DNA of 64,000 bases, taken from assembly GCF_021730305.1 (NCBI RefSeq), contig NZ_CP032674.1, positions 1,411,001 through 1,475,000 of the forward strand, written 5' to 3'. The notes under the pieces were generated by a model. That model was given only the letters and a program-made list of their open reading frames with translations, searched no databases and was not told the origin of the DNA. The DNA is from Xanthobacter sp. YC-JY1 (GTDB taxonomy: Bacteria; Pseudomonadota; Alphaproteobacteria; Rhizobiales; Xanthobacteraceae). Made by a program: the position numbers and the translations under genes. Shown here piece after piece: positions 9,536 through 38,187 of this stretch; within the stretch, counting starts at the first letter, position 1; each line of letters opens with the position of its first letter.

Positions 9536-11008
9536 TCATTCGGCGGCGGCCAAAGCGTCGCCGGCGGCGAGGGCGCCGGCATAGAGGTCGCGCGGCAGGT
9601 CGTCGGTGCCCACCGGGGCGAGGAAGCGGGCGAGGTGCTTCGCGCGGTCGGCGACGAACAGGTCACGGCCGATGGCGGCCACCGCGCGCGGGATGTTGTG
9701 GCGCAGGCTCGCAATGTCGCCCACCGGGCGCCCGGTGCTGGTCATGGCCGAGAAGGCGAGGAAGTGGATGTCGGCGAGGAAGGGCGCGGCGCCCGGCTCG
9801 CGCTCCACCAGCTCGAAGGCCGGGCCGAGATAGGGTGCGCTGGCGAGCGCGGCGTCGGCCTCGTCCACCGCCACCTTGTCCGCCCAGCGGGCGATTGAGG
9901 GAGCGAAATCGGCGAAGGGCGGATAGAGGCGGGCGTCGGCCTGATAGCCGGTGCCGAGCAGGATGAAGTCGGCGTCGAAGGTCGCGCCCGAATTCAGCGT
10001 GATGCGCACGCCGTCCCCGTGGGGCGTGGCCGCGTTCCAGCCGGCGTCGAGGTGGATGCGGAAGTTGGCATGGGCCACCGCCCGCTTCACCGCCGCCGGT
10101 GGCGGGAAGGAGGCCCGGCGACGGAAATGGGCCATCACCGCCCAGCGGTCGGCATCGGGCAGCGCATGGAAATGCTCCCACGCCCCGAAGAAGCCGAAGG
10201 GCTTCATGGCCGAGCCGCGGGCGAGGTCCGCGCCGCGGGAGAACAGGTCCACCACCCCCGCGCCGGCCTCCAGCAGCGCGCCCGCCGCATCGAAGGCGGA
10301 GGCCGCCGAGCCGAGGATGGCGACGCGCCGGCCGGCAAGGGCCTTCGGGTCGAAGGCGTGGGTGTGGGCGTAAAGGTGGCCGGGCAGGCCGGCGACCACA
10401 TCGGGAATGAAGGGGCCGCCCGAGCCGGCGATGCCGGTGGCGAGCACCAGCTTGCGGGTGGTCTCGGTGAAGGTCTTCCCTTCCGCCGTGAAGTGGAGCC
10501 GCAGCCCCCCTTCCTTTCGCCGCCCCTCCTGCGGCTCCACCCGCGCCAGGGTGACGCCATTGCGCACCTCGACGGCGGACGCCGAGCGGAACCACGCCAC
10601 ATAGTCCGCCCAGATTTCACGCGGCACGGTCGGCAGCGTGGCGTAGGCCTCGACCCCATAGGCCGCCTCGTACCAGGCCTGGAAGGAGAGGCTGGGCAGG
10701 CCCAGCTCCGGACCCGGCGGCACCTTGGGGGTGCGCAGGATGGTCATGCGCGCGGGGCCGCGCCAGATGCCTTCATGGCCGGCCGGCGCGGCATCGACGA
10801 CACTGACGCGGCCGATGCCGGCGCGCCGGAGGCCGAAGGCGGCGGAAAGGCCGCTCTGGCCGGCGCCCACCACCACCACATTGTGGTCGATGCCCTCGGC
10901 CGGAGGCACCCAGTCCGTGCCGGTCTCGCCGATGCGGGCGAGATCGGCCTGAGCCTGTGCGGCAAGGCGGGCGAGGGCGTTGATGTCGGGGGTGGCGGGC
11001 GTGGTCAT
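9536..11008 (-). CDS. FAD/NAD(P)-binding monooxygenase-like oxidoreductase
   Basis: A 490 aa flavoprotein related to single-component NADPH flavin monooxygenases. A GxGxxG FAD fold occurs near residue 50 (VVVVGAGQSGLSAAFGL), and a second Rossmann motif occurs mid-protein (RRVAILGSAASAFDAAGAL), followed by IILLGTGYQAD-type residues typical of FMO-like enzymes. It is the last gene of a three-gene unit (LLM monooxygenase, SfnB-like protein, this gene) with gaps of 31 and 24 bp, so it probably acts on organosulfur substrates or their products. The substrate is unknown. A good AGGACA box precedes the start. Confidence 0.8.
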   Translation of the reverse strand: MTTPATPDINALARLAAQAQADLARIGETGTDWVPPAEGIDHNVVVVGAGQSGLSAAFGLRRAGIGRVSVVDAAPAGHEGIWRGPARMTILRTPKVPPGPELGLPSLSFQAWYEAAYGVEAYATLPTVPREIWADYVAWFRSASAVEVRNGVTLARVEPQEGRRKEGGLRLHFTAEGKTFTETTRKLVLATGIAGSGGPFIPDVVAGLPGHLYAHTHAFDPKALAGRRVAILGSAASAFDAAGALLEAGAGVVDLFSRGADLARGSAMKPFGFFGAWEHFHALPDADRWAVMAHFRRRASFPPPAAVKRAVAHANFRIHLDAGWNAATPHGDGVRITLNSGATFDADFILLGTGYQADARLYPPFADFAPSIARWADKVAVDEADAALASAPYLGPAFELVEREPGAAPFLADIHFLAFSAMTSTGRPVGDIASLRHNIPRAVAAIGRDLFVADRAKHLARFLAPVGTDDLPRDLYAGALAAGDALAAAE

Positions 11009-11032
11009 GGTCTTGTCCTGTTGCGGGAGCGG

Positions 11033-12274
11033 TCAGCCAGCCTTGGCGGCGATGCCGTCGCCGACGCGGTAGGGGCCGGGGGGCCAGGTGCCGTTCACCG
11101 CGAAGTCGCCGACGATGCGCTCGCGGTAGACGCGCGGATTGTGGGAGGAGAGGGTACGGGCGTTGCGCCAGTGGCGGTCGAGGCCCACGCCGCGCCGCGC
11201 CGAAGAGGCGCCCAGCGCGTCGAACAAATGGGAGGTGGCATCGAGGATGAGGGAGGTCACCACCGTGACGCCCTGGTTCACCTCGAGGTCCGCCACGGCC
11301 ACCGAAAGGTCCTGCCCCTCGGATGTCTCCCGCTCGCGGGTGTCATAGGCCCGCTGCAGCGCCTCGGCCGCCTTCAGCACCACCGCGCCGGCCCCGTAGG
11401 CGCTGGCGCGCACCTTGCCAACGATCTGGAGGATCTGGGGATCGGCGCCCGCGCGGTCGGCATTGCCGTGGCTGAACACGCGCTTGCGCGCCGAGACGAG
11501 CCGCGCCACGTCGCCCGCCGCCGCGCGGCCGATGCCGGCGAGGGTAGCGAGGTGGACGAGCTGGTAGAAGGCGACCGAATAGCGGAAGCGCTTGCGCTGC
11601 GGATTGATGAGGTCGTCGGAGAGGGTGACGTTGTCGAACTTGGCCGTGCCGGAGGCGGTGAGCTGCTGGCCGAAGCCGTCCCAGTCGTCCACGATGCTCA
11701 CGCCGGGCGCGCCGGTGGGCACCTGGGCGAGGATGAAATTGCCCTCCTCATCCTCGGCGCCGAGATTGATCCAGTCGGCGAACAGGGAGCCGGTGGTGTA
11801 GAATTTCTGGCCGTCGAGGCGCAGCCGGTCGCCGTCGCGCACGATGCGGGTGTTGAAGTGGCCGACCGCATTGTCCGCCCCCTCGGTGAAGCCGCTGCCC
11901 GAGGTCTGCTTGGCGGCGATGCGCTTCACCCAGCGGTCGCGATAGTCCTTGAAGGGCGAGTTCAGCACCTCCTCGGTGAAGCCGAAATGGGCGCGCAGCG
12001 CATTGGTGACGTTGCTGTCCGCCTCGGACAGCTCGATCAGCAGGTTGAACAGCTCGGGCAAGGTGGCGCCGAAGCCGCCTTCGTCCTTGGGCAGGCGCAG
12101 GGTGGTGAAGCCGGCCTCCTTCAGGGCGGCGATCTCGGCGCGGGGCAGGCGGTGGGTCTGCTCGCGCTCCACCGCGCTGTCGCGGATGTCGCGGAAGATG
12201 GGGCGGAACCGGCTGGCGAGTTCCTCGTACCGGTCGGTGGGGCCGGCGCCCCAGGCGTCTTCGATCTGGCTCAT
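11033..12274 (-). CDS. SfnB/DszC-like flavin-dependent monooxygenase (acyl-CoA dehydrogenase fold)
   Basis: A 413 aa protein of the acyl-CoA dehydrogenase superfamily, in the branch containing SfnB and dibenzothiophene monooxygenase DszC. Members use FMNH2 or FAD to oxygenate sulfur compounds rather than dehydrogenate acyl-CoA. The N-terminal helical domain reads TLRLPKDEGGFGATLPELF; the C-terminal segment contains DRHWRNARTLSSHNP, where the second DszC-type active-site His is kept and the first is replaced. The chosen Met lies behind GAGGAT; the open frame runs 66 residues further but overlaps the upstream LLM gene. It is the second gene of a three-gene unit. Confidence 0.85.
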   Translation of the reverse strand: MSQIEDAWGAGPTDRYEELASRFRPIFRDIRDSAVEREQTHRLPRAEIAALKEAGFTTLRLPKDEGGFGATLPELFNLLIELSEADSNVTNALRAHFGFTEEVLNSPFKDYRDRWVKRIAAKQTSGSGFTEGADNAVGHFNTRIVRDGDRLRLDGQKFYTTGSLFADWINLGAEDEEGNFILAQVPTGAPGVSIVDDWDGFGQQLTASGTAKFDNVTLSDDLINPQRKRFRYSVAFYQLVHLATLAGIGRAAAGDVARLVSARKRVFSHGNADRAGADPQILQIVGKVRASAYGAGAVVLKAAEALQRAYDTRERETSEGQDLSVAVADLEVNQGVTVVTSLILDATSHLFDALGASSARRGVGLDRHWRNARTLSSHNPRVYRERIVGDFAVNGTWPPGPYRVGDGIAAKAG

Positions 12275-12305
12275 GGACGGATGGATCCTCGGGATGAAGG
12301 GTAGC

Positions 12306-13658
12306 TCAGCGGCCGGCGGCGACACGCGGCGCGGAGACCGCCGTGCCGGGGGCGAAGCGGCTGGCGGGGCGGGGCAGGCCGAAATGCTCCCGCAGCGTCC
12401 GGCCGGAATAATGGGTGCGGAACAGCCCGCGCTTGCGCAGCAGCGGCACCACGTGATCGACGAAGACTTCAAGGCCCTCGGGGAGCACGTCAGGCATCAG
12501 GTTGAAGCCGTCCACGGCGCCGGCGGTGAACCAGGCCTCGATGTCGTCGGCGATGGCCTCCGGCGTGCCGACGATGACGCGGTGGCCGGTGGAGCCGCCG
12601 AAGCGGCGGATGAGCTGGCGCACGGTGAGCTTCTCGCGGTCGGCCGCGCCCACCAAAGCGTCGAAGAAGGTCTGCATCCCATCCACCGGGCGCGCCACGT
12701 CAGGCAGCGGGCCGTCTAGGTCGAGGGAGGCGGGGTCCACCTTGAGGATGCCGGCGACGCGGCGCAGCCCGTAATCGCCGGGAGTGAGCGCCCACAATTC
12801 CTCCTCGCGGCGGCGCGCCTCGGCCTCGGTGGAGCCGATGATGGTGGCAAGGCCGGGCAGGATCACGATGTCGTCGCCGCTGCGGCCGAAGGTGCGGGCC
12901 TGGGTGCGCACCGAGCCCGAGAAGGCCAGCGCCTCTTCCAGCGTATGGGCGACGGAGAAAATGGCTTCCGCATGCCGCGCGGCGAGGCGGATGCCGTCCG
13001 CCGATCCGCCCGCCTGCACCAGCACCGGCCGGCCTTGCACCGAGCGCGGCACGTTGAGCGGCCCGCGCACCGAAAAGTGCCGGCCGCGATGCTCGATGGG
13101 GTGGACCTTGGCGGTGTCGATGAATCGGCCGGTGGCCTTGTCGCCGACGAAGGCGTCGTCCTCCCAGCTGTCCCACAGGGCCGTCACCACGTCGGCGAAT
13201 TCGTCGGCCCGCTCGTAGCGATTGGCATGGGCCTCCAACTCGTCGGTGCCGAAATTGCGCGCGGCTGAGGCATCGGCGGTGGTGACGATGTTCCAGCCCA
13301 CACGGCCATTGCTGGCGATGTCGAGGGAGGCGAAGCGGCGGGCGAGATTGTAGGGGTCGTTGAAGCTGGTGGAGGCGGTGCCGATCAGGCCCAGATGCTC
13401 GGTGGCGGCGGCGACGTGCGCCAGCACGATGGTCGGCTCCAGCGCCTGGAAGGGGCGCAGGTCCGGCCGGTCGGAGAAGGCCGGCACGTCGGCGAGGAAG
13501 ATGGCGTCGAAGGTGCCGCGCTCGGCGATCTGGGCGACCTTCACATAATGGCCGATGTCGGCATAGGCGCGGGGATCGGACGACGGCGCACGCCAGGCCG
13601 AGCTGTAGAAGCCGGCATTGAGGGTGTTGACGTTCATGTGCAGCTGGCGTGGGGCCAT
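12306..13658 (-). CDS. LLM-class FMN-dependent monooxygenase (NtaA/SnaA/DszA group)
   Basis: A 450 aa luciferase-like TIM-barrel enzyme that uses reduced FMN from a partner reductase to oxygenate its substrate. Group-defining motifs are FDAIFLAD, HLGLIGTASTSFNDPYNLAR, ASNGRVGWNIVTT, the RYERADEF helix and the C-terminal RTLREHFGLPRP tail. It is closely related to the proteins at 23398 and 36826, which share the same HIGLIGTAST and WDSWEDDA blocks. It is the first gene of a unit with an SfnB-like protein and an FAD monooxygenase, and the AT-rich palindrome at 13750-13772 is about 90 bp upstream. Context favours organosulfur substrates; aminopolycarboxylates (as for NtaA) are an alternative. 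Confidence 0.88.
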   Translation of the reverse strand: MAPRQLHMNVNTLNAGFYSSAWRAPSSDPRAYADIGHYVKVAQIAERGTFDAIFLADVPAFSDRPDLRPFQALEPTIVLAHVAAATEHLGLIGTASTSFNDPYNLARRFASLDIASNGRVGWNIVTTADASAARNFGTDELEAHANRYERADEFADVVTALWDSWEDDAFVGDKATGRFIDTAKVHPIEHRGRHFSVRGPLNVPRSVQGRPVLVQAGGSADGIRLAARHAEAIFSVAHTLEEALAFSGSVRTQARTFGRSGDDIVILPGLATIIGSTEAEARRREEELWALTPGDYGLRRVAGILKVDPASLDLDGPLPDVARPVDGMQTFFDALVGAADREKLTVRQLIRRFGGSTGHRVIVGTPEAIADDIEAWFTAGAVDGFNLMPDVLPEGLEVFVDHVVPLLRKRGLFRTHYSGRTLREHFGLPRPASRFAPGTAVSAPRVAAGR

Positions 13659-13749: not shown

Positions 13750-13772
13750 AGTTTGTCTATAAATTTAATAGA
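13750..13772. promoter_or_regulatory. AT-rich T-N11-A inverted repeat (site A)
   Basis: TCTAT (13756-13760), AAATTTA, ATAGA (13768-13772) form an inverted repeat with the T-N11-A spacing of LysR-type boxes. It lies in an AT-rich island amid GC-rich DNA, upstream of the minus-strand LLM gene. The 21 bases 13750-13770 recur exactly on the opposite strand at 31800-31820, before the SsuD-like gene. Confidence 0.55.
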
Positions 13773-13834
13773 AATATCGTGCAGGCCGAGCCAGATGCAC
13801 CGCCGGCCGCATCCGGGCCGGCGGCGCGGGCCGT

Positions 13835-14890
13835 TCAGGGCGCGGGGTTTCCGTGCAGTTGGTGCAGGGCGTCGATGCGGTCCTCGATCTCCGGCGTCAG
13901 GGTCACGTCGAGCGCGCCGAGATCCTCCTCCAGCTGCGCGAGGGTGGTGGCGCCGATGATGTTGGAGGTCACGAACGGCCGGCTGGTGACGAAGGCGAGG
14001 GCGAGCTGCGCCGGGCTCAGGCCCACCTCCCGCGCCAGCGCCACATAGGCGCGCACCGCCTCTTCCGTGCCGGGCTTCTCGTAGCGCTGGGCGCGGTTGA
14101 ACAGCGTCTTGCGGGCGCCGGCGGGCAGGGCGCCGTCGAGATACTTGCCGGTGAGAAAGCCCTGCGCCAGCGGTGAATAGGCGAGCAGGCCCACGTCCTC
14201 GCGCTGGTGGAATTCGGCAAGGCCGGTCTCGTAGACGCGGTTCACGAGGTTGTAGGCGTTCTGCACCGAGACGACGCGCGGGCCGATGCCCTTTTCCGCC
14301 GCGGCGAGGAAGGCGGACAGGCCCCAGGCGGTCTCGTTGGAGAGGCCGATATGGCGCACCTTCCCGGCCTTCACCAGCGCATCGAGGGCCACCAGTGTCT
14401 CTTCGATCGCCACCTCCGGGCCGTCGCCGCCGCCCCGCGCGCGGGTGGTGGCGCGCTGGCCGAACAGGGGCACGGCGCGATCGGGCCAGTGGAGCTGGTA
14501 GAGGTCGATATAGTCGGTACCGAGGCGCTTCAGCGAGCCTTCGACGGCCTCGTTGATGTTCTTCGCATCGAGCCGTGTGGTGCTGCCGTCGGCGCGGAAA
14601 TAGGTGGCGTCCGAGCGGCCCACCACCTTGGTGGCGATCACCACCTTGTCGCGGCCGCCGCGCGCCTTCAGCCAGGAGCCGATGATGCGCTCGGTGGCGC
14701 CCTGCGTCTCGGCCTTGGGCGGGATGGGATAGAGCTCGGCGGCGTCGATGAGATTGATGCCGCGGTCGCGGGCGACGTCGAGCTGGGCGTGGCCCTCGGC
14801 CTCGGTGTTCTGCTCGCCGAAGGTCATGGTGCCGAGCGCGATGGACGACACCGAGATGCCGGTGCGCCCGAGGGGGCGATAATCAAGCAT
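13835..14890 (-). CDS. tas: Tas-family NADP(H)-dependent aldo/keto reductase
   Basis: A 351 aa aldo/keto reductase closely matching E. coli Tas: GTMTFGEQNTEAEGHAQLD, LIDAAELYP, DYIDLYQLHWPDRAVPLFG and HIGLSNETAWG. The catalytic tetrad is visible as Asp49, Tyr54, Lys88 and His134. It would reduce an aldehyde or ketone. It is the third gene of a minus-strand unit after the TauD-like dioxygenase and the DUF3088 protein (gaps of 104 and 60 bp). TauD-type reactions release aldehydes, so aldehyde clearance is a reasonable role, but that is inference. The ribosome site is weak. Confidence 0.9.
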   Translation of the reverse strand: MLDYRPLGRTGISVSSIALGTMTFGEQNTEAEGHAQLDVARDRGINLIDAAELYPIPPKAETQGATERIIGSWLKARGGRDKVVIATKVVGRSDATYFRADGSTTRLDAKNINEAVEGSLKRLGTDYIDLYQLHWPDRAVPLFGQRATTRARGGGDGPEVAIEETLVALDALVKAGKVRHIGLSNETAWGLSAFLAAAEKGIGPRVVSVQNAYNLVNRVYETGLAEFHQREDVGLLAYSPLAQGFLTGKYLDGALPAGARKTLFNRAQRYEKPGTEEAVRAYVALAREVGLSPAQLALAFVTSRPFVTSNIIGATTLAQLEEDLGALDVTLTPEIEDRIDALHQLHGNPAP

Positions 14891-14950
14891 GGGGAAATGG
14901 AAATCCGCAGGAGGGAACGGCGCGGAAGGTGACCGCGCCGGATGGGCGCG

Positions 14951-15295
14951 TCAATGCGGGAAGGGGACGCCGTGGCGCTCGGCGATCAGTTCCAGGATGC
15001 GGCGGGTGTCGGTGACGAAGCGGTAGGTGCCATAGGCCTGCGCATCCGCCGGGAGGGGCGCCGCGTCGCCGAGGATGAGGACGGGCAGGCCCTGATTGTC
15101 CGGCCCGAGCAGCGCCACCACCTCGGCCCGCGGCCGCAGGAAGGACACGCGCTTCACGGTGATGCGGCTGGCGAGGCCCGGACTGCTCGCGAGCACCCCC
15201 TCGATCTGGTTGCAGTCCGGGCAGAAGTAGCGCCGGCCGGGCTTCTGCGGATCGGTGAAACCGGGGGCGAGGAGGATGAGGAAGTCGCGGCTCAT
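14951..15295 (-). CDS. DUF3088 protein with CPDC motif
   Basis: A 114 aa protein matching my recollection of the DUF3088 family, thioredoxin-like in outline. MSRDFLILLAPGF is followed by a CxxC motif (CPDCNQIEGVL, residues about 25-35) and RPRAEVVALLGPDNQGLPVLIL, similar to the cis-proline side of thioredoxin folds. There is no signal peptide, so it is cytoplasmic. It lies between a TauD-like dioxygenase and a Tas-like reductase on the same strand, which suggests a redox or sulfur-handling role. No function is established. Confidence 0.75.
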   Translation of the reverse strand: MSRDFLILLAPGFTDPQKPGRRYFCPDCNQIEGVLASSPGLASRITVKRVSFLRPRAEVVALLGPDNQGLPVLILGDAAPLPADAQAYGTYRFVTDTRRILELIAERHGVPFPH

Positions 15296-15399: not shown

Positions 15400-16374
15400 T
15401 CAGGCGGTGCCGGCGGTGAAGGCCTCCAGCGGCTCGCCCTCGATGATGCTGGAGGGGCGCCCATCCACGCCCACCGGCACGTCGCCCTTGAGGGTGATGC
15501 GATAGAGCTGGCGGTCGAAGTCGAGGGAATAGATGTCGCGCGGGGCGAGGTGGGCGGTGGTGCGGTTGTCCCAGAAGGCGATGGAGCCCGGCCGCCAGCG
15601 GAAGCGCACGGTGAATTCCGGCCGCGTGATGTGCTCGAACAGCAGGTCCAGCAGCTGCTGGCTCTCGCGCGGGGTGAGGCCGGTGATGCTCTTGAGGAAG
15701 GAGGGGCTGACGAACAGCACCCGCTCGCCCGTCTCCGGGATGACGCGCACCAGCGGGTGCTCGCTCACCAGCGGACGGCGGCGGTTCTTCTCCTTGAAAT
15801 CGGCGGTGCCGGCCTGGCCCTCGGGCGGGGCGAAGGCGTGGATGCCGCGCAGCGTGTCGACGAAGCCGCGCAAAGTGGGGGAGAGCGCCTCATAGGCGAC
15901 AGCGAGGTTGGTCCAGAAGGTGTCGCCGCCATAAGGCGGAATGGTCACGCCGCGCAGGATGGAGGCGGCGGGCGGGTTCACCGCGGCGGTCACGTCCGTG
16001 TGCCAGCCGGTCCAGGGGCGGATCAGCGGCTCGCCGGTGTGGCGCGTGGCGAACCGGTCGCGGCCGATGGAATAGACCTGCGGGTAGCCCTCGACAAAGC
16101 CGAACACGGGATGGCCGATGGTGGGCGCGCCGAAGGCCGAGGCCAGCGCCACATGCTCGGCATGGCTCAGCAGCTGGTCGCGGAAGAACACCACCTTCCA
16201 CTTGAGAAGCGCGGCGCAGATCTCGTCCACCACTTCCGGCGACAGCGGACGGGACAGGTCCGGCGCCTCGATCTCCGCGCCGATATGGCCGGTGAGCGGA
16301 TGCACGGCGATATGGCGCGGCGCCAGGTCGGCGAATCCGCTTTCGCGGGAGGGGACGGGCGCGGCGCTCGGCAT
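15400..16374 (-). CDS. TauD/TfdA-family alpha-ketoglutarate-dependent dioxygenase
   Basis: A 324 aa non-heme Fe(II) dioxygenase of the taurine dioxygenase type, which would hydroxylate a sulfonate, sulfate ester or related compound at the carbon next to the heteroatom, releasing sulfite or sulfate and an aldehyde. The iron ligands are visible: His125 and Asp127 in WHTDVT, and the distal His275 in DNRTTAHLAPRD; Arg288 and Arg292 lie where the alpha-ketoglutarate arginine is expected. AAAGGA precedes the start. It is divergent from the Dpp-like transporter operon across the AT-rich region with site B. Taurine itself is not assured. Confidence 0.9.
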   Translation of the reverse strand: MPSAAPVPSRESGFADLAPRHIAVHPLTGHIGAEIEAPDLSRPLSPEVVDEICAALLKWKVVFFRDQLLSHAEHVALASAFGAPTIGHPVFGFVEGYPQVYSIGRDRFATRHTGEPLIRPWTGWHTDVTAAVNPPAASILRGVTIPPYGGDTFWTNLAVAYEALSPTLRGFVDTLRGIHAFAPPEGQAGTADFKEKNRRRPLVSEHPLVRVIPETGERVLFVSPSFLKSITGLTPRESQQLLDLLFEHITRPEFTVRFRWRPGSIAFWDNRTTAHLAPRDIYSLDFDRQLYRITLKGDVPVGVDGRPSSIIEGEPLEAFTAGTA

Positions 16375-16460: not shown

Positions 16461-16500
16461 CTATATTCTATCTTTTTTATAGATTTTATTAAAAAAATAA
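16461..16500. promoter_or_regulatory. AT-rich divergent promoter with inverted repeat (site B)
   Basis: In the 204 bp between the TauD-like gene (minus) and the ABC binding protein (plus), a 40 bp AT-rich island contains TCTAT (16467-16471), CTTTTTT, ATAGA (16479-16483). This has the same half-sites and seven-base spacer as site A. It sits where one regulator could control both divergent units. Confidence 0.55.
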
Positions 16501-28000: not shown

Positions 28001-28061
28001 GGCATATCCTGGTGCGTGACGCATGCGGGGCGCGCGGGGCGGCGCGGGCGGGGCAGGGGGG

Positions 28062-29054: not shown

Positions 29055-29082
29055 GGGGCTCTCGATGGGGCTCTCGGTTGGT

Positions 29083-29796: not shown

Positions 29797-30668
29797 CGGG
29801 CCGCTCCGCCGAAATTGGGGTGCCAGGCCAGCAGGCGCCGTTCCAGCAGCCGCGCCAGCGAATCCGCGACCACGCCGATGAGCGCGTAGATGACGATGGT
29901 GAGCACCACCACGTCGGTGCGCAGGAACTCGCGCGCGTCCATGGCGAGGAAGCCGATGCCCGCCTGCGCGCCGATGGTCTCCGCCACCACCAGCGCCAGC
30001 CACGCGGTGGCCAGCGAATAGCGCACGCCGGTGAGGATGGAGGGCAGGGCGCCCGGCAGGATGATGCGCGAGATCATCTGGCGGGTGGAGAGGCCCTGCA
30101 CCCTGCCGAGCTCGATAAGCTTGGGGTCCACCTGCCGGATGCCGAGGGTGGTGTTGATGTAGATGGGGAAGGCGACGCCCAGCGCCACGAGGAAGATCTT
30201 CTGCCCCTCGCCCACGCCGAACCACACGATCACCAAAGGCAGCAGAGCGAGGAAGGGTATGGCGCGCACCATCTGCACGCTGCGGTCCACCAGCGCCTCG
30301 GCGAGGCGCGAGAAGCCGACGAGGATGCCGAGCGCAAAGGCGATGCTGCCCCCCACCAGGAACCCCACCGCCGCCCGCACGAGGCTGGTGCCGAGATCGG
30401 CGAGAAGAGTGCCGGAGGTCGCGAGCTTGTAGGCGGTGCGCACCACCTTGCTCGGCGCCGGCAGCACATGGGGCGCCACATAGCCCACCTGCGCCAGCAC
30501 CTCACACACCACGACCAGCAGCACCGGCGCGGCCCAGGAGAGGAGAAGAAGCTGGCGCGGGCCGAGGCCGGCCCGCCGGAGCGCTGCGGCCGGAGCGGCA
30601 GCGGTTTTGGCGACCGGCCGGGCGACGGCGGGCAGGGGGAAGGTTGCTGTGTGGTCGGCGTTGCTCAC
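29793..30668 (-). CDS. ssuC: Sulfonate ABC transporter permease (GTG start)
   Basis: A 291 aa integral membrane protein with about six helices, of the SsuC/TauC type: LPAPSKVVRTAYKLA, VGFSRLAEALVDRSVQMVR and the C-terminal FLRTDVVVLTIVIYALIGV. No suitable ATG is present near the homology start; a GTG at 30668 behind GGAG gives the expected length. The gap to the SsuD-like gene is 34 bp. It forms the channel with SsuB and SsuA. Confidence 0.88.
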   Translation of the reverse strand: MSNADHTATFPLPAVARPVAKTAAAPAAALRRAGLGPRQLLLLSWAAPVLLVVVCEVLAQVGYVAPHVLPAPSKVVRTAYKLATSGTLLADLGTSLVRAAVGFLVGGSIAFALGILVGFSRLAEALVDRSVQMVRAIPFLALLPLVIVWFGVGEGQKIFLVALGVAFPIYINTTLGIRQVDPKLIELGRVQGLSTRQMISRIILPGALPSILTGVRYSLATAWLALVVAETIGAQAGIGFLAMDAREFLRTDVVVLTIVIYALIGVVADSLARLLERRLLAWHPNFGGAAR

Positions 30669-30702: not shown

Positions 30703-31785
30703 TCAGCTGGCCGCGGCGATGGTCCGGCCGGCGGCGGCCGAAGCGGGGCGGCCGAGGCGGGGGAAGACCTCCGCGGCGAAGCGCCGAAGCTCGGCCCTGA
30801 GCGGCTGGAACTGGAGCATGAACAGCTCGATGCCCGCGGCATGGAAGGCGTGGATGCGCTCGGCCACCTGATCGTAGCTGCCCACCAGCCCGGCGGCGGT
30901 GCCGCCATTGGTGCCGACGCGCGGCGATTTCGCGAAGGAGCGGATCATCACCACGTTGGGATCGGTACGCGCCGCCTGCTCCTGCTTGGCCGGCGCATCC
31001 TTGGCGGCGAGGGCGAGGAGGCGGCGATATTCCTCTTCCGCCTCGCGCTCGGTCTCGCGGGCGATGACGAAGGCGGCAAGGCCATAAGCGAGCGGCGCGC
31101 CGGCGCGGGGGCGGCGGGCCAGATCGGCGATGATCGCCTTCACGTCCGCCAGGGGCTGGCCGTTGATGAAATAGACGTCGGCATGGTCGGCCGCCAGCGC
31201 CCGGGCGGGCTCGGATTCGCCGCCGAGATAGATGCGCGGGCGGGCGCGCACCGGGCTCTTCGGCGTGAGGCGATAGTCGGTCACGTCGAAATGCGCGCCC
31301 TTATGGGTGACGCTCTCGCCGCGCAGCAGCGGCTCGACAAGGCTGATCCACTCCCGGCCATAGGCATAGCGCGCGTCATGCTCGCCGAAGGGGATGCCGG
31401 CCTTCTCGAACTCGGCCCGGTTCCAGGCATTGACGAGGTTGAAGCCGAAGCGGCCGCCCGAGATGTTCTCGATCTGCAGCGCCATCTTCGCCAGCACCAC
31501 CGGGTGGTAGAGATAGGGCTTGATGGCGGCGAGGATCTCGATGCGGCTGGTGAGCGCCGCCAGCGCCGCCGAGGCGGTCCAGGCCTCGATCTGGTCCTTG
31601 TCCCCGAGGTGCGGATTGACCGTGTGCTGGGCCACCAGCGTCGCGTCGTAGCCGAGCGCCTCCGCCTCCAGCACCGTGTCGCGGTTGTGCGGCCAGGAGG
31701 CGTCGAACGGCTCGGCCGGATCCTGCCAGGCGGCCCGCGGGCCGTGAACCGGCGCCCAGACGCCGATGCGGAGGGGAGATGTCAT
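30703..31785 (-). CDS. SsuD-like LLM alkanesulfonate monooxygenase
   Basis: A 360 aa luciferase-like monooxygenase near the usual SsuD length. It contains GYDATLVAQHTVNPHLGD, ISGGRFGFNLVNAWNRAEFE, EHDARYAYGREWISLVEPLL and the SsuD-type loop VGTNGGTAAGLVGSYDQVAERI. It leads the ssu-type unit, so it should desulfonate the sulfonate imported by SsuABC, giving aldehyde and sulfite with FMNH2 and oxygen. AGGTGA is the ribosome site, and the AT-rich palindrome (site C) lies immediately upstream, so regulator binding would overlap translation-initiation DNA. Confidence 0.87.
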   Translation of the reverse strand: MTSPLRIGVWAPVHGPRAAWQDPAEPFDASWPHNRDTVLEAEALGYDATLVAQHTVNPHLGDKDQIEAWTASAALAALTSRIEILAAIKPYLYHPVVLAKMALQIENISGGRFGFNLVNAWNRAEFEKAGIPFGEHDARYAYGREWISLVEPLLRGESVTHKGAHFDVTDYRLTPKSPVRARPRIYLGGESEPARALAADHADVYFINGQPLADVKAIIADLARRPRAGAPLAYGLAAFVIARETEREAEEEYRRLLALAAKDAPAKQEQAARTDPNVVMIRSFAKSPRVGTNGGTAAGLVGSYDQVAERIHAFHAAGIELFMLQFQPLRAELRRFAAEVFPRLGRPASAAAGRTIAAAS

Positions 31786-31797: not shown

Positions 31798-31836
31798 TAT
31801 ATTAAATTTATAGACAAACTAACGAACGAGTTTGTC
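31798..31836. promoter_or_regulatory. Overlapping inverted repeats before the ssu-type operon (site C)
   Basis: Read on the minus strand, TCTAT (31810-31814), AAATTTA, ATATA (31798-31802) repeats the site A pattern. It shares 21 identical bases with 13750-13770 in opposite orientation. Overlapping it is a second perfect inverted repeat, GACAAACT (31813-31820), eight bases, AGTTTGTC (31829-31836). The elements sit 13-51 bp upstream of the SsuD-like start, where an operator would control transcription. Confidence 0.55.
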
Positions 31837-31930: not shown

Positions 31931-31965
31931 ATGTAAATTAATTCCATCAAATTTATCAAATAAAG
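31931..31965. promoter_or_regulatory. AT-rich promoter island before the MetQ-type gene (site E)
   Basis: The 309 bp between the divergent SsuD-like and MetQ-type genes holds site C at one end and a second AT-rich island here. TCCAT (31943-31947), CAAATTT, ATCAA (31955-31959) is a weak match to the TCTAT-N7-ATAGA element. No recognised riboswitch was seen in the remainder. Confidence 0.3.
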
Positions 31966-32094: not shown

Positions 32095-32922
32095 ATGACC
32101 TCCCGCTTCCGCTCCCCCCTCGCGGCCCTCGTCTTCTCCGGCATCGCGCTGTTCGCGGCCGGCACCGGCGCGAACGCGCAGGCCCCGGCCGCCGACAAGC
32201 CGCTGAAGATCGGCGTTTCGGCAGGTCCTTACGGCGACATCCTGCGCGAGGCGGCGAAGCTCTCGGCCGAGCAGGGGGTGAAGGCGGAGATCATCGAGTT
32301 CACCGACTGGAACCAGCCCAATGCGGCGCTGCAGGCCGGCGACATCGACCTCAACAATTTCCAGAACCGGCCGTATCTCGCCAACCAGGTGAAGACGCGC
32401 GGCTACACCATCGTCGCGCTGGATGAATCCATCCTCGTGCCGGCCGGCCTCTATTCCAAGAAGTATACGAGCTTCGCCGACATCCCGGCCGGCTCCAAGA
32501 TCGCCATTCCCAACGACCCGACCAATGGCGGTCGCGCGCTGCTACTGTTCCAGAAGGCGGGGCTCATCAAGCTGAAGCCGGGCTCGGGCCTTTATGCCAG
32601 CGTGCTCGACGTGGTCGACAACCCGAAGAACCTCAAGATCGTCGAGATCGACGCCGCCCAGCTGCCGCGCTCGCTGGACGACGTGGCCGCCGCCTTTGTC
32701 TCCTCCAACTATGCCTACCTCGCCGGCCTGCAACTGAAGAGCGCGCTTCTGGCCGAGACGACGCTGGAGGAGGCCAAGCCCTATTTCACCCTCGTCTTCG
32801 CCGTCCGCGAGGATCGCAAGGACGATCCGCGCATCGCCAAGTTCATCGCGGTCTACCGCTCCCAGCCGGTGAAGGACTTCACCCTCGCCAAGTTCAACGG
32901 CAGCCTCATCCCCACCTGGTGA
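32095..32922 (+). CDS. MetQ/NlpA-family substrate-binding protein
   Basis: A 275 aa periplasmic binding protein: cleavable leader ending GANAQA (no lipobox Cys, unlike E. coli MetQ), then LKIGVSAGPYGDILREAAKL, FTDWNQPNAALQAGDIDLNNFQNRPYL (split by one residue from the family pattern), IAIPNDPTNGGRALLLFQKAG and the C-terminal FNGSLIPTW. Family members bind methionine or related sulfur compounds. No MetN/MetI partners are in the window. It heads a unit with DszC-like, LLM and nitroreductase genes, which implies an organosulfur ligand. Confidence 0.88.
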   Translation: MTSRFRSPLAALVFSGIALFAAGTGANAQAPAADKPLKIGVSAGPYGDILREAAKLSAEQGVKAEIIEFTDWNQPNAALQAGDIDLNNFQNRPYLANQVKTRGYTIVALDESILVPAGLYSKKYTSFADIPAGSKIAIPNDPTNGGRALLLFQKAGLIKLKPGSGLYASVLDVVDNPKNLKIVEIDAAQLPRSLDDVAAAFVSSNYAYLAGLQLKSALLAETTLEEAKPYFTLVFAVREDRKDDPRIAKFIAVYRSQPVKDFTLAKFNGSLIPTW

Positions 32923-32957: not shown

Positions 32958-34169
32958 ATGAACCCGCCTGCCGCCCGTCCGTCCCATTTGTCCCTCGCCC
33001 CGGCCACGCCCGTGCGGCCCGACTGGATCGCCCTCGCGCAGGGCGTCGCCGATGCCCTGGCGCCGGATGCCGCCGAGCGCGACCGCATCGGCGCCTCGCC
33101 CAAGCGCGAGCTCGCGCTACTGCGCGAGGCGGGATTGCTCGAACTGCTCTTTTCCCCCGAGCACGGCGGGGGCGGTGGATCGTTCACCGACGCGCTCCGC
33201 GCCGTGCGGGTGATCGGCCGGGCGGATGCCTCCATCGCCCAGTTGCTCGCCTATCACTATCTCCACCTCACCAATGCGCTGTGGCGGGCGAGCCCGGAGC
33301 GGGCGGCGGCGCTGGCGCGGGCCTCGGTGGCCGGGCGCTGGTTCTGGGGCGGCGCCTCCAACCCGCGCGATCCGGAATCGCGCCTCGCGCCGGTGGAGGA
33401 TGGCTACCGCCTCACCGGCCGCAAGACCTTCGCCTCCAATGCCGCGCTGGCTGATCGCATCACGCTGCGCGCGCAGCTCGGCGACGGCTTCGCCGTGCTC
33501 GTCGTGCCCGGCGACCGGGAGGGCGTGACCCACGGCAATGACTGGGACGCCTTCGGCCAGCGCCTGTCGGAGAGCGGCACCATCACCTTCGCCGACGTGA
33601 AGGTGGGCCGCGACGAGATCCTCGGCGATCCCGCCGCCCCGCCGCCGCCGCGCACCAGCCTCGTGGTGCCGTTCCACCAGCTGCTCATCGTCAATTTCTA
33701 CATCGGCATCGCCGAGGGCGCGCTGGCCGAGGCGAACCGCTACATCCGCGAGGTCTCCCGCCCGTGGCAGGCCTCCGGCGTGGAGAAAGCGAGCCTCGAC
33801 CCCTACATCCTCGAGCATTACGGCAATCTCGACGTGGAGCTGCGCGCCTCCACCGCGCTGGCGGATGTGGCCGGCCTACGCTTCGAGGCGGCGACCGCGC
33901 TGGGCAATGCCATCACTCCCGAAGAGCGCAATGTCGCCGCCGCAGCGATCTATGCGGCCAAGGTGCATTCCAGCCGCACGGCGCTGGAGGTCACTTCCCG
34001 CATCTTCGAGCTGATGGGCGCCCGCGCCACGGCCGGCCATTACGGCTACGACCGCTTCTGGCGCAACATCCGCACCCACACCCTGCACGATCCGGTGGTC
34101 TACAAATCCCGCGAGGTGGGCAATTACGCCCTCAACGGCGTCATCACGCCGACCCCGCTCTACAGCTGA
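32958..34169 (+). CDS. DszC-like flavin-dependent monooxygenase (acyl-CoA dehydrogenase fold)
   Basis: A 403 aa protein of the DszC/SfnB branch. FSPEHGGGGGSFTDALRAV is the N-terminal loop, YRLTGRKTFASNAALADRI the central strand, and DRFWRNIRTHTLHDPVVYK the C-terminal active-site stretch. Of the three such proteins here this is the only one with both DszC-type histidines (RTHTLHDP, three residues apart), so it is the best candidate for a true sulfide/sulfoxide monooxygenase. GAGGAG precedes the start. The next gene, a DmoA/DszA-like LLM enzyme, starts 14 bp after its stop, a pairing that recalls DszC with DszA. Confidence 0.88.
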   Translation: MNPPAARPSHLSLAPATPVRPDWIALAQGVADALAPDAAERDRIGASPKRELALLREAGLLELLFSPEHGGGGGSFTDALRAVRVIGRADASIAQLLAYHYLHLTNALWRASPERAAALARASVAGRWFWGGASNPRDPESRLAPVEDGYRLTGRKTFASNAALADRITLRAQLGDGFAVLVVPGDREGVTHGNDWDAFGQRLSESGTITFADVKVGRDEILGDPAAPPPPRTSLVVPFHQLLIVNFYIGIAEGALAEANRYIREVSRPWQASGVEKASLDPYILEHYGNLDVELRASTALADVAGLRFEAATALGNAITPEERNVAAAAIYAAKVHSSRTALEVTSRIFELMGARATAGHYGYDRFWRNIRTHTLHDPVVYKSREVGNYALNGVITPTPLYS

Positions 34170-34183
34170 GGGCGGACGCCGCC

Positions 34184-35599
34184 ATGACCTCCAAACCGCT
34201 CAACCGCGACATCCGCTTCAACGCCTTCAACATGGCCTCGCCCGGCCACACCTGGGCGGGCCTGTGGGCGCATCCGCGCGACCGCGCCATCGACTATAAC
34301 AGCCTCGATTATTGGATCGACCTCGCGGTGACCGCCGAACGCGGCCTGTTCGACGGCGTGTTCATCGCCGACGTGTTCGGGGTCTATGACGTCTATGGCA
34401 ACAGCCCGGACGCGGCGCTGATCTCGGCCGCGCAAACGCCGGACATCGACCCCGCTCTGGTGGTGCCGAGCATGGCGCACGCCACCAAGCACATCGGCTT
34501 CGGCGTCACCGCCAATCTCACCTACGAGCACCCCTACCAGTTCGCCCGCCGCTTCGCGACGCTGGACCATCTCACCAAGGGCCGGGTGGGCTGGAACATC
34601 GTCACTGGCTATCTGGACAGCGGCGCGCGCGGCATGGGCGACACCGCCAATCGCGACCATGACGCCCGCTACGAGGCGGCGGAGGACTTCCTCGCCGCCG
34701 TCTACAAATTGTGGGAGGGCAGCTGGGAGGAGGGTGCCGTGCGCCGCGACCGCGCCGCCCGCGTCTTCACCGATCCCGCCAAGGTCCACCGCATCCGCCA
34801 CAACGGTCCCTATTACCAGGTGGATGGCATCCAGCTCGCCGAGCCCTCGCCCCAGCGCACGCCGGTGCTCTACCAGGCCGGCACTTCGGGCCGGGGGCGG
34901 CTGTTCGCGGCGAAGCATTCCGAGGCCATCTTCCTCAATGGCCAGACCCGCCCCATCCTCGCCGAGGCGGTGCGCGCGGTGCGCACGGCGGCGGCGAGCT
35001 TCGGGCGCGACCCCTACGACATCCGCATGTTCCCCGGCGCGACGGTGATCGTCGCCCCCACCCGCGCCGAGGCCTTCGACCGGCTGGCTGAGTATGCCCA
35101 ATATGTCCACACCGCCGGGCAACTGGCGCTGCTCTCCGGCTGGACCGGCGTGGACCTCTCCACCCTCGATCCGGAGGAGGCCATCTCCTACGTGAAGAGC
35201 AACGCCATCCAGTCCACGCTGGAAAACCTCACCTTGCGCAGCGCCGAGCCGCTGAAGGTGAAGGACCTCGCCACCCTTTCCGCCACCGGCGCCCGCGCGC
35301 CCTTCATCGTCGGCGCGCCCGGCGAGGTGGCGGACGAGATCATCTCCTGGGTGCGCGACACGGACGTGGACGGCTTCAACCTCAACCGCCTCGTCTCCCA
35401 CGAGACGCTGGCCTCGTTCGTAGATCTCGTGGTGCCGGAGCTGCAGGATCGCGGCGTCTACAAGACGTCCTACGATGAGGGTACGCTGCGCGAGAAGCTG
35501 TTCCGCCGCGGTCCCCTCCTGCCCGACACCCACCCCGCCGCCGGCTTCCGCCGGACTGCGGGGGCCGTCGCCGTCGAGAAGCCGCGCGCCACAGCCTGA
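34184..35599 (+). CDS. LLM-class FMN-dependent monooxygenase (DmoA/DszA-like)
   Basis: A 471 aa luciferase-like monooxygenase with RFNAFNMASPGHTWAGLW at the N-terminus, FDGVFIADVFGVYDVY, TYEHPYQFARRFATLDHL, KGRVGWNIVTGYLDSGARG and DVDGFNLNRLVSHETLASFV. These resemble DmoA (dimethylsulfide monooxygenase) and DszA more than the NtaA-like proteins elsewhere in the window. The Met is fixed by the start of homology; the open frame continues upstream only as a shadow. Substrates may be thioethers or sulfones handed on by the preceding DszC-like enzyme. Confidence 0.88.
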   Translation: MTSKPLNRDIRFNAFNMASPGHTWAGLWAHPRDRAIDYNSLDYWIDLAVTAERGLFDGVFIADVFGVYDVYGNSPDAALISAAQTPDIDPALVVPSMAHATKHIGFGVTANLTYEHPYQFARRFATLDHLTKGRVGWNIVTGYLDSGARGMGDTANRDHDARYEAAEDFLAAVYKLWEGSWEEGAVRRDRAARVFTDPAKVHRIRHNGPYYQVDGIQLAEPSPQRTPVLYQAGTSGRGRLFAAKHSEAIFLNGQTRPILAEAVRAVRTAAASFGRDPYDIRMFPGATVIVAPTRAEAFDRLAEYAQYVHTAGQLALLSGWTGVDLSTLDPEEAISYVKSNAIQSTLENLTLRSAEPLKVKDLATLSATGARAPFIVGAPGEVADEIISWVRDTDVDGFNLNRLVSHETLASFVDLVVPELQDRGVYKTSYDEGTLREKLFRRGPLLPDTHPAAGFRRTAGAVAVEKPRATA

Positions 35600-35660
35600 T
35601 CGAGACCGCCTGATCGCATATGAGCGCCGTTCGCTGCGCCGTCCTACGGAGCTTGCCCCG

Positions 35661-36527
35661 ATGTCCGACACTGCCGCCACCTCCGGCGCCACCCTCGCGC
35701 CCGATGAAGCCGCCGCCGCCCGCGCCTTGCTGGAGACCCGCTACGGCGCGGCCGAGGCGCCGCCCGGCATCCTCCTCAACGACACCATTGCCGGCCTGCT
35801 GAGCCATCGCAGCGTGCGCGCCTTCACGCAGGAGCCCTTGCCGGAGGGGCTGCTGGAAACGCTGGTGGCGGCGGCGCAATCCGCCCCGTCTTCCTCCAAC
35901 CTCCAGACCTTCAGCGTGGTGGCGGTGGAGAACCCGGCCACCAAGGCGCGCCTCGCCGAGATCGCTGGCGGGCAGAAGCATGTCATCGAGGCGCCGCTGG
36001 TGCTGGTGTGGCTCGCCGACCTCGCGCGGCTGGAGGAGATCGGCCGCCGCAACGCCCACCCCACCGATGCGCTGGGCTTTCTGGAGACGCTGTTCGTCGG
36101 CTTCATCGACGCCGCTCTGGCGGCGCAGAATGCGCTGGTGGCGCTGGAATCCCTTGGCCTCGGCGGCGTCTATCTCGGCGCGCTGCGCAACCGGCCGGTG
36201 GAACTCGCCGAGCTGCTCGGCCTGCCGCCCAATGTGGTGGGCGTATTCGGCCTCGCCATCGGCTATCCCGACCCCGCCCGCCCGGCGGACGTGAAGCCGC
36301 GCATCTCCCAGCGCCTCGTGCTTCACCGCGAGCGCTATGATGCGAGCCTGCCGCAGGACGCTTTGGACCATTACGAGGCGGCGCTGAAGGACTTCCAGAA
36401 GGGCCAGAACATCCCCGAGATCGGCTGGATCGCCGCCGCTTTGCCGCGTGTGCGCGGCGCGGAATCCCTCGCCGGCCGCGACCGCATCCGCGATGCGCTG
36501 ACGGCGCTGGGTTTCGGCCTGCGCTGA
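35661..36527 (+). CDS. NfsA-type nitroreductase / NADPH-dependent flavin oxidoreductase
   Basis: A 288 aa nitroreductase-fold protein of the NfsA/Frp type: LLSHRSVRAFTQEPLPEGLLETL, AAQSAPSSSNLQTFSVVAV (FMN-binding), LGLGGVYLGALRNRPVELAELL and GLPPNVVGVFGLAIGYP. NfsA relatives (Frp) supply FMNH2 to luciferase-like enzymes in other bacteria, so it is a candidate reductase for the LLM enzymes here. It lies 61 bp after the LLM gene on the same strand. Confidence 0.87.
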   Translation: MSDTAATSGATLAPDEAAAARALLETRYGAAEAPPGILLNDTIAGLLSHRSVRAFTQEPLPEGLLETLVAAAQSAPSSSNLQTFSVVAVENPATKARLAEIAGGQKHVIEAPLVLVWLADLARLEEIGRRNAHPTDALGFLETLFVGFIDAALAAQNALVALESLGLGGVYLGALRNRPVELAELLGLPPNVVGVFGLAIGYPDPARPADVKPRISQRLVLHRERYDASLPQDALDHYEAALKDFQKGQNIPEIGWIAAALPRVRGAESLAGRDRIRDALTALGFGLR

Positions 36528-36670
36528 GGGCTGAGCAGGGGGTGCCGCCTCGGCGCGCGGGTCGAGAACATGCCAGTCCCCGGCCGTCCACGGATGGGCG
36601 GGGAGGGTGATTTCCTGCGAATTTCCAGACGGTTCTCCGGGGCTGCGCGCCCGGGAGCCGGCGCGCTTTG

Positions 36671-36695
36671 TTCAATTCATATAAAATAGATTGAA
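36671..36695. promoter_or_regulatory. AT-rich island with inverted repeat before LLM gene (site D)
   Basis: TTCAAT (36671-36676), 13 bases, ATTGAA (36690-36695) is a perfect inverted repeat; inside it AATTC-ATATAAA-ATAGA keeps one half-site and the spacing of site A. It lies about 130 bp upstream of the LLM gene at 36826. The match to sites A-C is partial. Confidence 0.35.
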
Positions 36696-36825
36696 ATTAT
36701 CATATTGGTGGTGGATGCTTCCTCCGACCGGCTCTTCCGGCCGAAGCCATCCACCCGTTCCGCCCGCCGATCCTGCCCCTCGCGGCGCGCGACCCGCCAG
36801 AGATTTCGCCCCCTGGAGGCGACAG

Positions 36826-38187
36826 ATGACCAAAGCGCGACAGATCAAGCTCGGTGCCTTCCTGATGACGGACGGCCACCACATCGCGGGCTGGCGGCAT
36901 CCCCGCGCCACCGCGAACGCCAACGTCCGCGTCGATCACTACCTGCGCCTCGCGCGCCTCGCCGAGGCGGCGAAGCTCGACGCCATCTTCCTCTCCGACT
37001 CCCTCGGCGTGCGCGACACGAACCTTGATTCGGTGCACCGCACCTCGCGCAATGTGGGCTTCGAGCCGCTGACCCTGCTCTCCGCCCTTTCGGTGGTGAC
37101 GCACCATATCGGCCTCATCGGCACCGCCTCCACCTCCTTCAACGAGCCCTTCCACATCGCCCGCAAGTTCGCCTCCCTCGACCAGCTCAGCGGCGGGCGC
37201 GCGGGGTGGAACCTCGTCACCTCCTCGGGCGAGGAAGAGGCGCGCAACTTCAATCTCGATGAGCACATCCCCCACGCGGACCGCTATGACCGGGCGCGCG
37301 AGTTCGTCGAGGTGGTGAAGGGGCTGTGGAACAGCTGGGAGGACGACGCCTTCCAGCGCGACAAGGTTTCCGGCACCTATTTCGATCCCGACAAGCTCCA
37401 CGTGCTCAACCATCGCGGCAAGCACTTCAAGGTGGCGGGACCGCTCAACGTCGCCCGCTCGCCGCAAGGCCATCCGGTGGTGGTGCAGGCCGGCGCCTCC
37501 GAGGATGGCCGGTCGCTGGCGGGTGAGAGCGCGGAAGCCATCTTCTGCGCCCACCGGACGCTGGCCGAGGCGCGCGCCTTCTATGCCGACATCAAGACCC
37601 GCGCCGCCAATGCGGGGCGTAATCCGGACCATGTGAAGATCATGCCCGGCGTCTTCCCCGTCATCGGCCGCACGGAAGCGGAGGCGCGGGAGAAGTTCGA
37701 GGAACTGCAATCCCTCATCCATCCGGCGGTGGGGCTTCAGCTTCTCTCGGTGGTGGCCGGGGTCGGCGACCTCTCCGGCTACGATCTCGACGGGCCGCTG
37801 CCGGACCTGCCCGTGACCAACGGCCCCAAGAGCCGCCAGCAATTGGTGATCGACGCCGCGCGGCGCGACAACCTCACCATCCGCCAGCTCTATCTCTCCA
37901 TCGCCGGGGCGCGCGGCCACTGGCAGGTGGTGGGCACGGCCGAGCAGATCGCCGACCAGCTGGAAGAGCGCTTCCGCAAGGAGGGCGCGGACGGCTTCAA
38001 CATCATGGCGCCGCACCTGCCGGGCGGGCTGGAGGACTTCATCGAGCAGGTGGTGCCGATCCTGCAGGAGCGCGGCCTGTTCCGCACCGAGTATGAAGGC
38101 ACGACCCTGCGCGAGAATCTCGGCCTGCCGTTCCCCACCCATCCCGCCGCGCGGGACGAGCGCCTGATCGCGGAAGCGGCGGAATAG
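36826..38187 (+). CDS. LLM-class FMN-dependent monooxygenase (NtaA/SnaA group)
   Basis: A 453 aa luciferase-like monooxygenase with the same blocks as the 12306 and 23398 proteins: LDAIFLSDSLGV, HIGLIGTASTSFNEPFHIAR, LSGGRAGWNLVTSSGEEEARN, LWNSWEDDAF, and the C-terminal GTTLRENLGLPFPTHPA. GGAGGCGACAG precedes the start; the frame extends 45 codons upstream through the AT-rich promoter and is discounted. It appears monocistronic, with its own promoter island (site D) and a following hairpin. Substrate unknown. Confidence 0.88.
   Translation: MTKARQIKLGAFLMTDGHHIAGWRHPRATANANVRVDHYLRLARLAEAAKLDAIFLSDSLGVRDTNLDSVHRTSRNVGFEPLTLLSALSVVTHHIGLIGTASTSFNEPFHIARKFASLDQLSGGRAGWNLVTSSGEEEARNFNLDEHIPHADRYDRAREFVEVVKGLWNSWEDDAFQRDKVSGTYFDPDKLHVLNHRGKHFKVAGPLNVARSPQGHPVVVQAGASEDGRSLAGESAEAIFCAHRTLAEARAFYADIKTRAANAGRNPDHVKIMPGVFPVIGRTEAEAREKFEELQSLIHPAVGLQLLSVVAGVGDLSGYDLDGPLPDLPVTNGPKSRQQLVIDAARRDNLTIRQLYLSIAGARGHWQVVGTAEQIADQLEERFRKEGADGFNIMAPHLPGGLEDFIEQVVPILQERGLFRTEYEGTTLRENLGLPFPTHPAARDERLIAEAAE

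Follow-up and report, generated by a model that had tools for sequence, protein, structure and literature searches.

Do the genes for putative organosulfur enzymes that lie side by side in the chromosome of Xanthobacter sp. YC-JY1 belong together, and what ties them to each other? The window analyzed here comprises 64,000 nucleotides of this single-contig 5.39-Mb chromosome (positions 1,411,001 to 1,475,000 of NZ_CP032674.1) and contains a putative organosulfur block of about 29 kb with 25 genes; unless given as genome positions or locus coordinates, positions count from the first nucleotide of the window. A previous sequence-only reading of the window had interpreted the block as a sulfur starvation island able to use many sulfonates, sulfones, or thioethers. 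Our analysis partly supported this interpretation as a whole and supported its organosulfur part well. We consider it quite likely that the block is a Xanthobacter island of interchangeable cassettes scavenging sulfur from organic compounds, a conclusion drawn at the sequence level from the gene content, the ends of the block, the reshuffling of its cassettes, the identity pattern of cassettes A to C, and a shared promoter motif.

The block is a genomic island

The ends of the block became apparent from an empty site in X. aminoxidans (G002 contig C58, L159), where the sequences matching 7347-9468 and 38208-40050 are only 53 bp apart. Because both flanks are nearly joined in this species, the island ends were set at about 9469 and about 38207 (9469-38207, without strand, 25 genes), nearly equal to the limits of 9536 and 38187 assumed before. 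In a close sister genome (G009, rpoB identity of 96.2%), the same site holds a match to the aldo-keto reductase gene akr1 (13817-15008, 89.5%), a match to the nitroreductase gene ntr2 (35456-36532, 89.6%), and about 1.5 kb of other DNA. The finding of both empty and occupied sites among related genomes shows that the block is a real genomic island. No integrase or transposase was found among the island proteins scanned with profiles, a scan that took in only some of the flank genes, and no obvious direct repeat was seen when the junctions were read by eye, no dedicated repeat search having been run. The locus in G009 (L157:13482-17315) has the appearance of a minimal or decayed state of the island site.

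Judged by strand and gaps, the island consists of about five units: A (minus strand, llm1-sfnB1-FAD/NAD protein), B (minus strand, tauD-DUF3088-akr1), C (plus strand, dppABCDF-akr2-llm2-llm3-ntr1), D (minus strand, llm4-ssuC-ssuB-ssuA-sfnB2), and E (plus strand, metQ-dszC3-llm5-ntr2), the last being followed by llm6 behind a promoter-like gap of its own. Six of the 14 matches to PF00296, the family of the luciferase-like monooxygenases (LLMs), in the whole genome are located in the island. The binomial probability that some stretch of this size would show such clustering by chance is about 1e-8, a rough value that assumes independent placement, an assumption broken by operons. The genome has three strong matches to TIGR04022, all of them in the island, and the next among the 18 matches listed reached 101 bits.

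Cassettes recur in other combinations in relatives

The island is composed of at least five cassettes that are found in other combinations and at other places in related genomes. In X. agilis (G001), units A to E plus further genes were present within the approximately 90 kb examined. Strain NM-59 (G011) has most of the units, with D turned to the other side, and G008 carries A, a tauD-C-D stretch, and E at three separate places. In X. aminoxidans, the cassettes are split between two contigs, one carrying A and the other carrying B, C, the sfnB2 end of D, and E lacking llm6. In X. autotrophicus DSM 432 and in genome G007, which we take to be strain Py2, the 38 kb examined in each case contained only an akr1-like gene, llm2, metQ, dszC3, llm5, ntr2, and weaker transporter matches. 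An orthologue of dszC3 was present in 11 of the 14 genus genomes, the source genome included, and was not found in the other three (G004, G009, and G013, of which G004 is 88% complete); the closest relatives of the protein among the genome contigs searched are from Xanthobacter, with 94% identity in X. aminoxidans.

DNA identities differed between the cassettes. Toward X. agilis, the values were 94.8% for A (4.1 kb), 95.0% for B (2.5 kb), and 94.8% for C (10.1 kb), that is, about 95% over 16.8 kb for A to C together, compared to 89.2% for rpoB, 83.5% for D, and 81.0% for E. As A to C surpass rpoB, D, and E in identity, the simplest explanation would be that the A-C block was exchanged between species recently. 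The comparison with G008 gave a similar picture, with 96.1% for A and 96% for the Dpp part of C versus 93.9% for rpoB, 82.4% for E, and 81.6% for nadE. No contrast of this kind was observed toward X. aminoxidans, with 90 to 94% for the cassettes and 88 to 91% for the flanks.

The X. agilis island (contig C5, L121-L125) extends over at least about 85 kb and has extra SfnB-like, Dpp, and SsuBC genes as well as paired llm5-like genes.

A palindromic motif precedes the units

AT-rich segments precede the units, five of them within the island, and unsupervised motif finding yielded a palindrome in the island loci of the source genome and its relatives. When the position matrix was retrained on the loci of eight relatives with the source genome excluded, the five segments of the island and one of a locus at 827 kb of the genome took the top six places among the 55 distinct AT-rich segments of the source genome (59 rows with duplicates), the non-island segments coming from loci chosen for motif, LLM, or SsuA content rather than from a random sample. 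In island stretches that had not been used for training, 29 of 50 AT-rich segments scored above 12 bits, compared to 1 of 50 with the reversed matrix and 0 of 32 segments of control loci. The pattern TNTATNNANTNNATANA, with at most one mismatch, gave a similar picture: 44 sites were found in 551 kb of island loci versus one for the reversed pattern, a count that takes in training loci and overlapping stretches, and 24 versus one in the 18 untrained island stretches (352 kb); the control loci (315 kb) contained neither pattern. At lags 4, 5, and 9, the island segments showed an increased letter identity that the control segments lacked. A MAFFT alignment of 17 sites had three rows displaced by gaps, and no covariance model was built.

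In the island, four of the five segments contain a site with at most one mismatch. The box TCTATAAATTTAATAGA (13756-13772) upstream of llm1 and the box TATATTAAATTTATAGA (31798-31814) upstream of llm4 match without mismatch. Two overlapping boxes with one mismatch each (16467-16492) are located in the tauD-dppA gap just upstream of a TTGAC sequence, and upstream of llm6 (36667-36705) a box with one mismatch (36667-36683) is accompanied by a matrix site at 36685. The motif-like repeats upstream of metQ (31932-31961) were detected by the matrix only (16.7 bits), as they deviate from the pattern by more than one mismatch.

What makes the motif meaningful is where its sites lie rather than how many there are. 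The island contains the only two exact sites of the source genome and, when one mismatch is allowed, 5 of 16 sites, two of which overlap. Across the genus there are 13 exact sites. Six of these were placed next to organosulfur genes (two in the source genome, one in X. agilis, two in X. aminoxidans, and one in G012), and another two belong to the X. agilis island contig beyond the stretch read. A literal 15-mer, CTATAAATTTAATAG, was tried with up to three mismatches and gave 11 sites versus 15 for its reverse, a result counting against a common motif; the palindrome consensus was used instead.

The motif was also present at other sulfur loci of the source genome. At genome position 593349 it separates a flavin-reductase/SsuA/SsuC unit from an SsuD gene (616 bits; SsuD cut-off, 518), and at 585211 a weak site of 10 bits precedes a second SsuD gene (590 bits, also over the cut-off). 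In the X. agilis island, relatives of these two ssuD loci (80 to 85% DNA identity) are located between D and E, with motif scores of 20.5 and 17.6 bits. A third site, at 827648, is situated between an SsuABC-like transporter and the acireductone synthase of methionine salvage, and a relative of this transporter (91%) is found directly beside the tauD-C-D stretch of G008. Thus, loci connected by the motif in the source genome are connected by their location in related genomes. The sharing of the motif between the island units and the two ssuD operons, weak at the second operon, and the location of relatives of both operons inside the X. agilis island support the previously proposed organosulfur island beyond homology.

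At the 827-kb locus (L116:6544-10522, about 824.5 to 828.5 kb of the genome), the transporter and the acireductone synthase diverge from the motif site. Other matches, weaker or unassigned, exist as well; those of the matrix include positions close to a deacylase-SsuCA unit and on the downstream side of an LLM gene. Near the sites at 674557, 2193746, and 2496498, three of the other nine pattern sites with at most one mismatch in the source genome, comparison with the window proteins alone gave no match.

Gene content of the cassettes

Profile scans confirmed the positions that the sequence-only reading had given for six LLMs, three SfnB/DszC-branch proteins, the TauD-type dioxygenase, the Dpp-like and SsuABC transporters, and the MetQ-type protein. 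Six genes were added to this set, namely, those for a FAD/NAD-binding protein (9536), two aldo-keto reductases (13835 and 22211), a DUF3088 protein (14951), and two nitroreductase-fold proteins (26102 and about 35661).

Cassette A (minus strand) encodes an FAD/NAD(P)-binding oxidoreductase (9536-11008; Pyr_redox_2 and NAD_binding_9), the SfnB/DszC-branch protein SfnB1 (11033-12385; start approximate, open frame to 12472), and LLM1 (12306-13658) of the NtaA/DmoA family. Cassette B (minus strand) encodes the aldo-keto reductase Akr1 (13835-14890), the DUF3088 protein (14951-15295), and the TauD/TfdA-type dioxygenase (15400-16374). The DUF3088 gene adjoins the TauD-type gene not only here but also in X. 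agilis, X. aminoxidans, and G011, as well as at L017 and L036. Cassette C (plus strand) comprises the dppA, -B, -C, -D, and -F-like genes of an ABC importer (16579-22199; starts approximate) and the genes for the aldo-keto reductase Akr2 (22211-23344), LLM2 (23398-24768), the SfnG-like LLM3 (24884-26071), and the nitroreductase-fold flavoprotein Ntr1 (26102-26704). Cassette D (minus strand) comprises sfnB2 (26771-28024), genes for an SsuA-, SsuB-, and SsuC-like ABC importer (28062-30608; starts approximate), and the gene for the SfnG/SsuD-like LLM4 (30703-31785). In cassette E (plus strand), a gene for a MetQ/NlpA-type binding lipoprotein (32095-32922) is followed by dszC3 (32958-34169), llm5 (34184-35599), and the NfsA-type nitroreductase gene ntr2 (35661-36527; start approximate); llm6 (36826-38187) is on the same strand. 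Neither metN nor metI was found among the island proteins by the profile scans.

Family assignments were firm for only part of these proteins. The TIGR03860 cut-off (279.7 bits) was passed by LLM1 (538), LLM2 (566), LLM5 (521), and LLM6 (612). LLM3 (170) and LLM4 (216) missed the SfnG cut-off (TIGR04021, 383), and LLM4 also missed that of SsuD (TIGR03565, 518) with 152 bits. The three SfnB/DszC-branch proteins, which have the acyl-CoA dehydrogenase (ACAD) fold, reached 264 (11033), 269 (26771), and 273 bits (32958) with the SfnB profile TIGR04022 (cut-off, 430.9) and 117, 136, and 275 bits with the DszC profile NF043015 (cut-off, 850). The TauD-type protein remained below the taurine dioxygenase cut-off (PRK09553, 217.5 versus 313 bits) and passed the broader PF02668. 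The SfnB/DszC-, SfnG/SsuD-, and TauD-like proteins thus scored under each of the substrate-defined cut-offs tried. Among the transport proteins, SsuA barely passed TIGR01728 (163.7 bits; cut-off, 163.5), SsuC (278; cut-off, 347) and SsuB (213; cut-off, 395) both missed, and the MetQ/NlpA protein reached 267 bits with PF03180 (threshold, 27) and 205.7 bits with TIGR00363 (cut-off, 228.85).

Comparison with proteins of solved structure gave dimethyl-sulfide monooxygenase (6ak1, 433 bits) followed by an alkane monooxygenase (424) for LLM5, and MoxC/YtnJ (CmoJ) as the best match for LLM6 (402) and LLM1 (335). LLM2 was closest to a nitrilotriacetate (NTA)-monooxygenase-like protein (351), then YtnJ (341); LLM3 to dimethylsulfone monooxygenase (125); and LLM4 to an LLM without stated function (199). 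The closest solved relatives of DszC3 were DszC and a group that includes MsuC: a thermophilic DszC had 272 bits, and methanesulfinate monooxygenase was third with 253. SfnB1 and SfnB2 matched the same thermophilic DszC weakly (127 and 142 bits). Pairwise identities of 28 to 53% among the six LLMs and of 31 to 40% among the three SfnB/DszC-like proteins are so low that recent duplication as the origin of these paralogues was ruled out; as judged from these sequences, the paralogues are old, and the island is a collection.

Proposed function and alternative explanations

The chemistry, the induction by sulfur shortage, and the control by one common regulator are the parts of our interpretation that we infer. 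The Dpp-type, SsuABC, and MetQ-type importers would take up the substrates. The SfnB/DszC-branch flavin enzymes would oxygenate the sulfur, converting thioethers to sulfoxides and sulfones or sulfinates to sulfonates, and the LLMs and the TauD-type dioxygenase would then cleave the C-S bond, releasing sulfite or sulfinate. Aldehydes formed in this process would be cleared by the aldo-keto reductases. A reductase common to the units would supply reduced flavin; possible candidates are the RutF/HpaC-type protein encoded at the ssuD locus and the nitroreductase-fold proteins. Joint control of the units through the palindromic box, by a regulator encoded elsewhere, is probable. As a guess, the set of MetQ-type, DszC-like, and DmoA-like proteins makes cassette E the best candidate for thioethers, and cassette D might serve for sulfonates or sulfones.

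More tentatively, the cassettes could be mobile operons without a regulator of their own, in which the shared operator box puts a newcomer under the sulfur regulator of the host and the newcomer draws on the shared reductase. In this proposal, the host regulator would not belong to the CysB family here, and no flavin reductase of the MsuE/SsuE kind was recognized in the cassettes. No regulator gene was recognized among the island proteins. A TTGAC next to the box would suit an activator, and the llm4 box near the start codon would suit a repressor.

An alternative use of the cassettes, which we regard as highly improbable, is the catabolism of carbon or nitrogen sources such as aminopolycarboxylates, alkanes, or xenobiotics, with NtaA-, EmoA-, or LadA-like LLMs and with uptake of the compound by the Dpp-type importer. 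The solved relatives of LLM1, LLM2, LLM5, and LLM6 do include NtaA, EmoA, an alkane monooxygenase, and a dehalogenase, but the same units contain SfnB/DszC-branch, SsuABC, TauD-type, and MetQ-type genes, and two ssuD operons whose relatives are members of the X. agilis island carry the motif as well. As for the origin of the island, the similar identities of cassettes and flanks toward X. aminoxidans and the wide occurrence of dszC3 in the genus would also be expected if the arrangement were ancestral and vertically inherited and the relatives had lost or moved parts of it without transfer between species. Such a history is nevertheless improbable, as A to C in X. agilis, and A and the Dpp part of C in G008, surpass rpoB and E in identity. 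A sulfur island without common control, in which the motif would be a general AT-rich feature of Xanthobacter promoters and each cassette would have its own regulator or none, is unlikely as well: the segments of the control loci and the reversed matrix gave next to no hits, five promoter segments of unlike island genes share the motif, and three sulfur loci are among the matches outside the island. In its favor, the pattern does not outnumber its reversed control genome-wide, LysR genes are located beside cassette A in two relatives, and the position of the sites varies relative to both the start codon and TTGAC.

Several results weigh against a commonly controlled organosulfur island. Genome-wide, the 16 sites of TNTATNNANTNNATANA with at most one mismatch compare to 15 of the reversed control, for which only counts and no positions are available, and 13 exact pattern sites in the 14 genomes compare to 17 control sites. 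The pattern was taken from a motif run that included the window, only the matrix having been trained without it, and the orthologous promoters in the motif counts are not independent of each other. TTGAC occurred 5 to 23 bp after the box center in just 17 of the 49 sites scanned, a count that includes orthologues and has no shuffled control, and the llm4 box is located 13 to 29 bp before the start codon, so that one promoter layout does not fit all sites. A genome-wide search for a CysB-family regulator gave none over the curated cut-off. Finally, TIGR03860 includes enzymes not related to sulfur, which act on NTA, EDTA, alkanes, hexachlorobenzene, or riboflavin.

A one-mismatch site (2496498) is located about 22 bp upstream of the LysR gene that ranked second in the genome for similarity to CysB; this gene was discarded as a candidate, since control sites were as many and chance is likely. 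LysR genes adjoin cassette A in X. aminoxidans (L126:5150-6145) and G008 (L133:6415-7419). They belong to other subfamilies, with scores under the cut-off, and no LysR gene was seen in the island here. Seven LysR-like genes found in the loci of relatives with two LysR probes were scanned, and none was assigned to a sulfur family over the cut-off.

Relation to known sulfur assimilation systems

Neither the enzyme families nor the concept of an organosulfur regulon is new; the arrangement appears to be. In Corynebacterium glutamicum, SeuA to SeuC are DszA/DszC-like. According to the accessible part of a study of its SsuR/CysR regulon, the ssu and seu genes form several sulfonate and sulfonate ester units under common sulfur-responsive control, which resembles the several organosulfur units of the island (PMC2580772). 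This species is Gram-positive and uses ROK-type regulators, and reshuffling cassettes are not described in that part of the study (PMC2580772). In the pathway from dimethyl sulfide to sulfite of Acinetobacter baylyi ADP1 and Pseudomonas, which includes Dms1 to -3, SfnG, MsuC, MsuD, SsuD, and MsuE, ACAD-fold (group D) enzymes oxidize dimethyl sulfide to sulfoxide and sulfone, downstream two-component enzymes release sulfite, and a single reductase serves all of them (PMC13352529). By analogy, the island may follow the same division of labor. It differs in that no island protein is over the SfnG or SsuD cut-off, no MsuE-type reductase was recognized in it, and Dpp-, MetQ-, and TauD-type units are extra.

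For S-alkylcysteine salvage in Bacillus subtilis, the accessible text describes successive action of CmoO and CmoJ, with S-oxidation before C-S cleavage (PMC10863075). The island shares with this pathway the MoxC/YtnJ-like LLM6 and LLM1; the acetyltransferase and deacetylase of the pathway were not among the island proteins scanned. In Rhodococcus qingshengii IGTS8 on dibenzothiophene, TauD, SsuD, SfnG, MetQ/MetN, and an NTA-monooxygenase-like protein are tabled before the part headed as downregulated, which we take as meaning that they are upregulated, and these sulfur acquisition families resemble those of the island; in the portion of the report available, the gene numbers are widely separated and a mobile island is not described (PMC8557817). 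Our literature search, which mostly did not extend to subscription papers and thus does not establish absence from print, gave no account of a modular, transferable, and commonly marked island in Xanthobacter. If correct, our interpretation would provide a clear case of soil bacteria broadening their sulfur diet by trading ready-wired cassettes, a set of uncharacterized C-S cleaving enzymes with defined partners, and access to the sulfur regulator of this group through one operator.

Flanking region

An Rrf2 gene (38951-39583) was considered as a regulator of the island and rejected, as it lies just beyond the right end of the island, in flanking DNA that is connected to nadE at the empty site. 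An Rfam scan of the window at gathering scores gave one tRNA.

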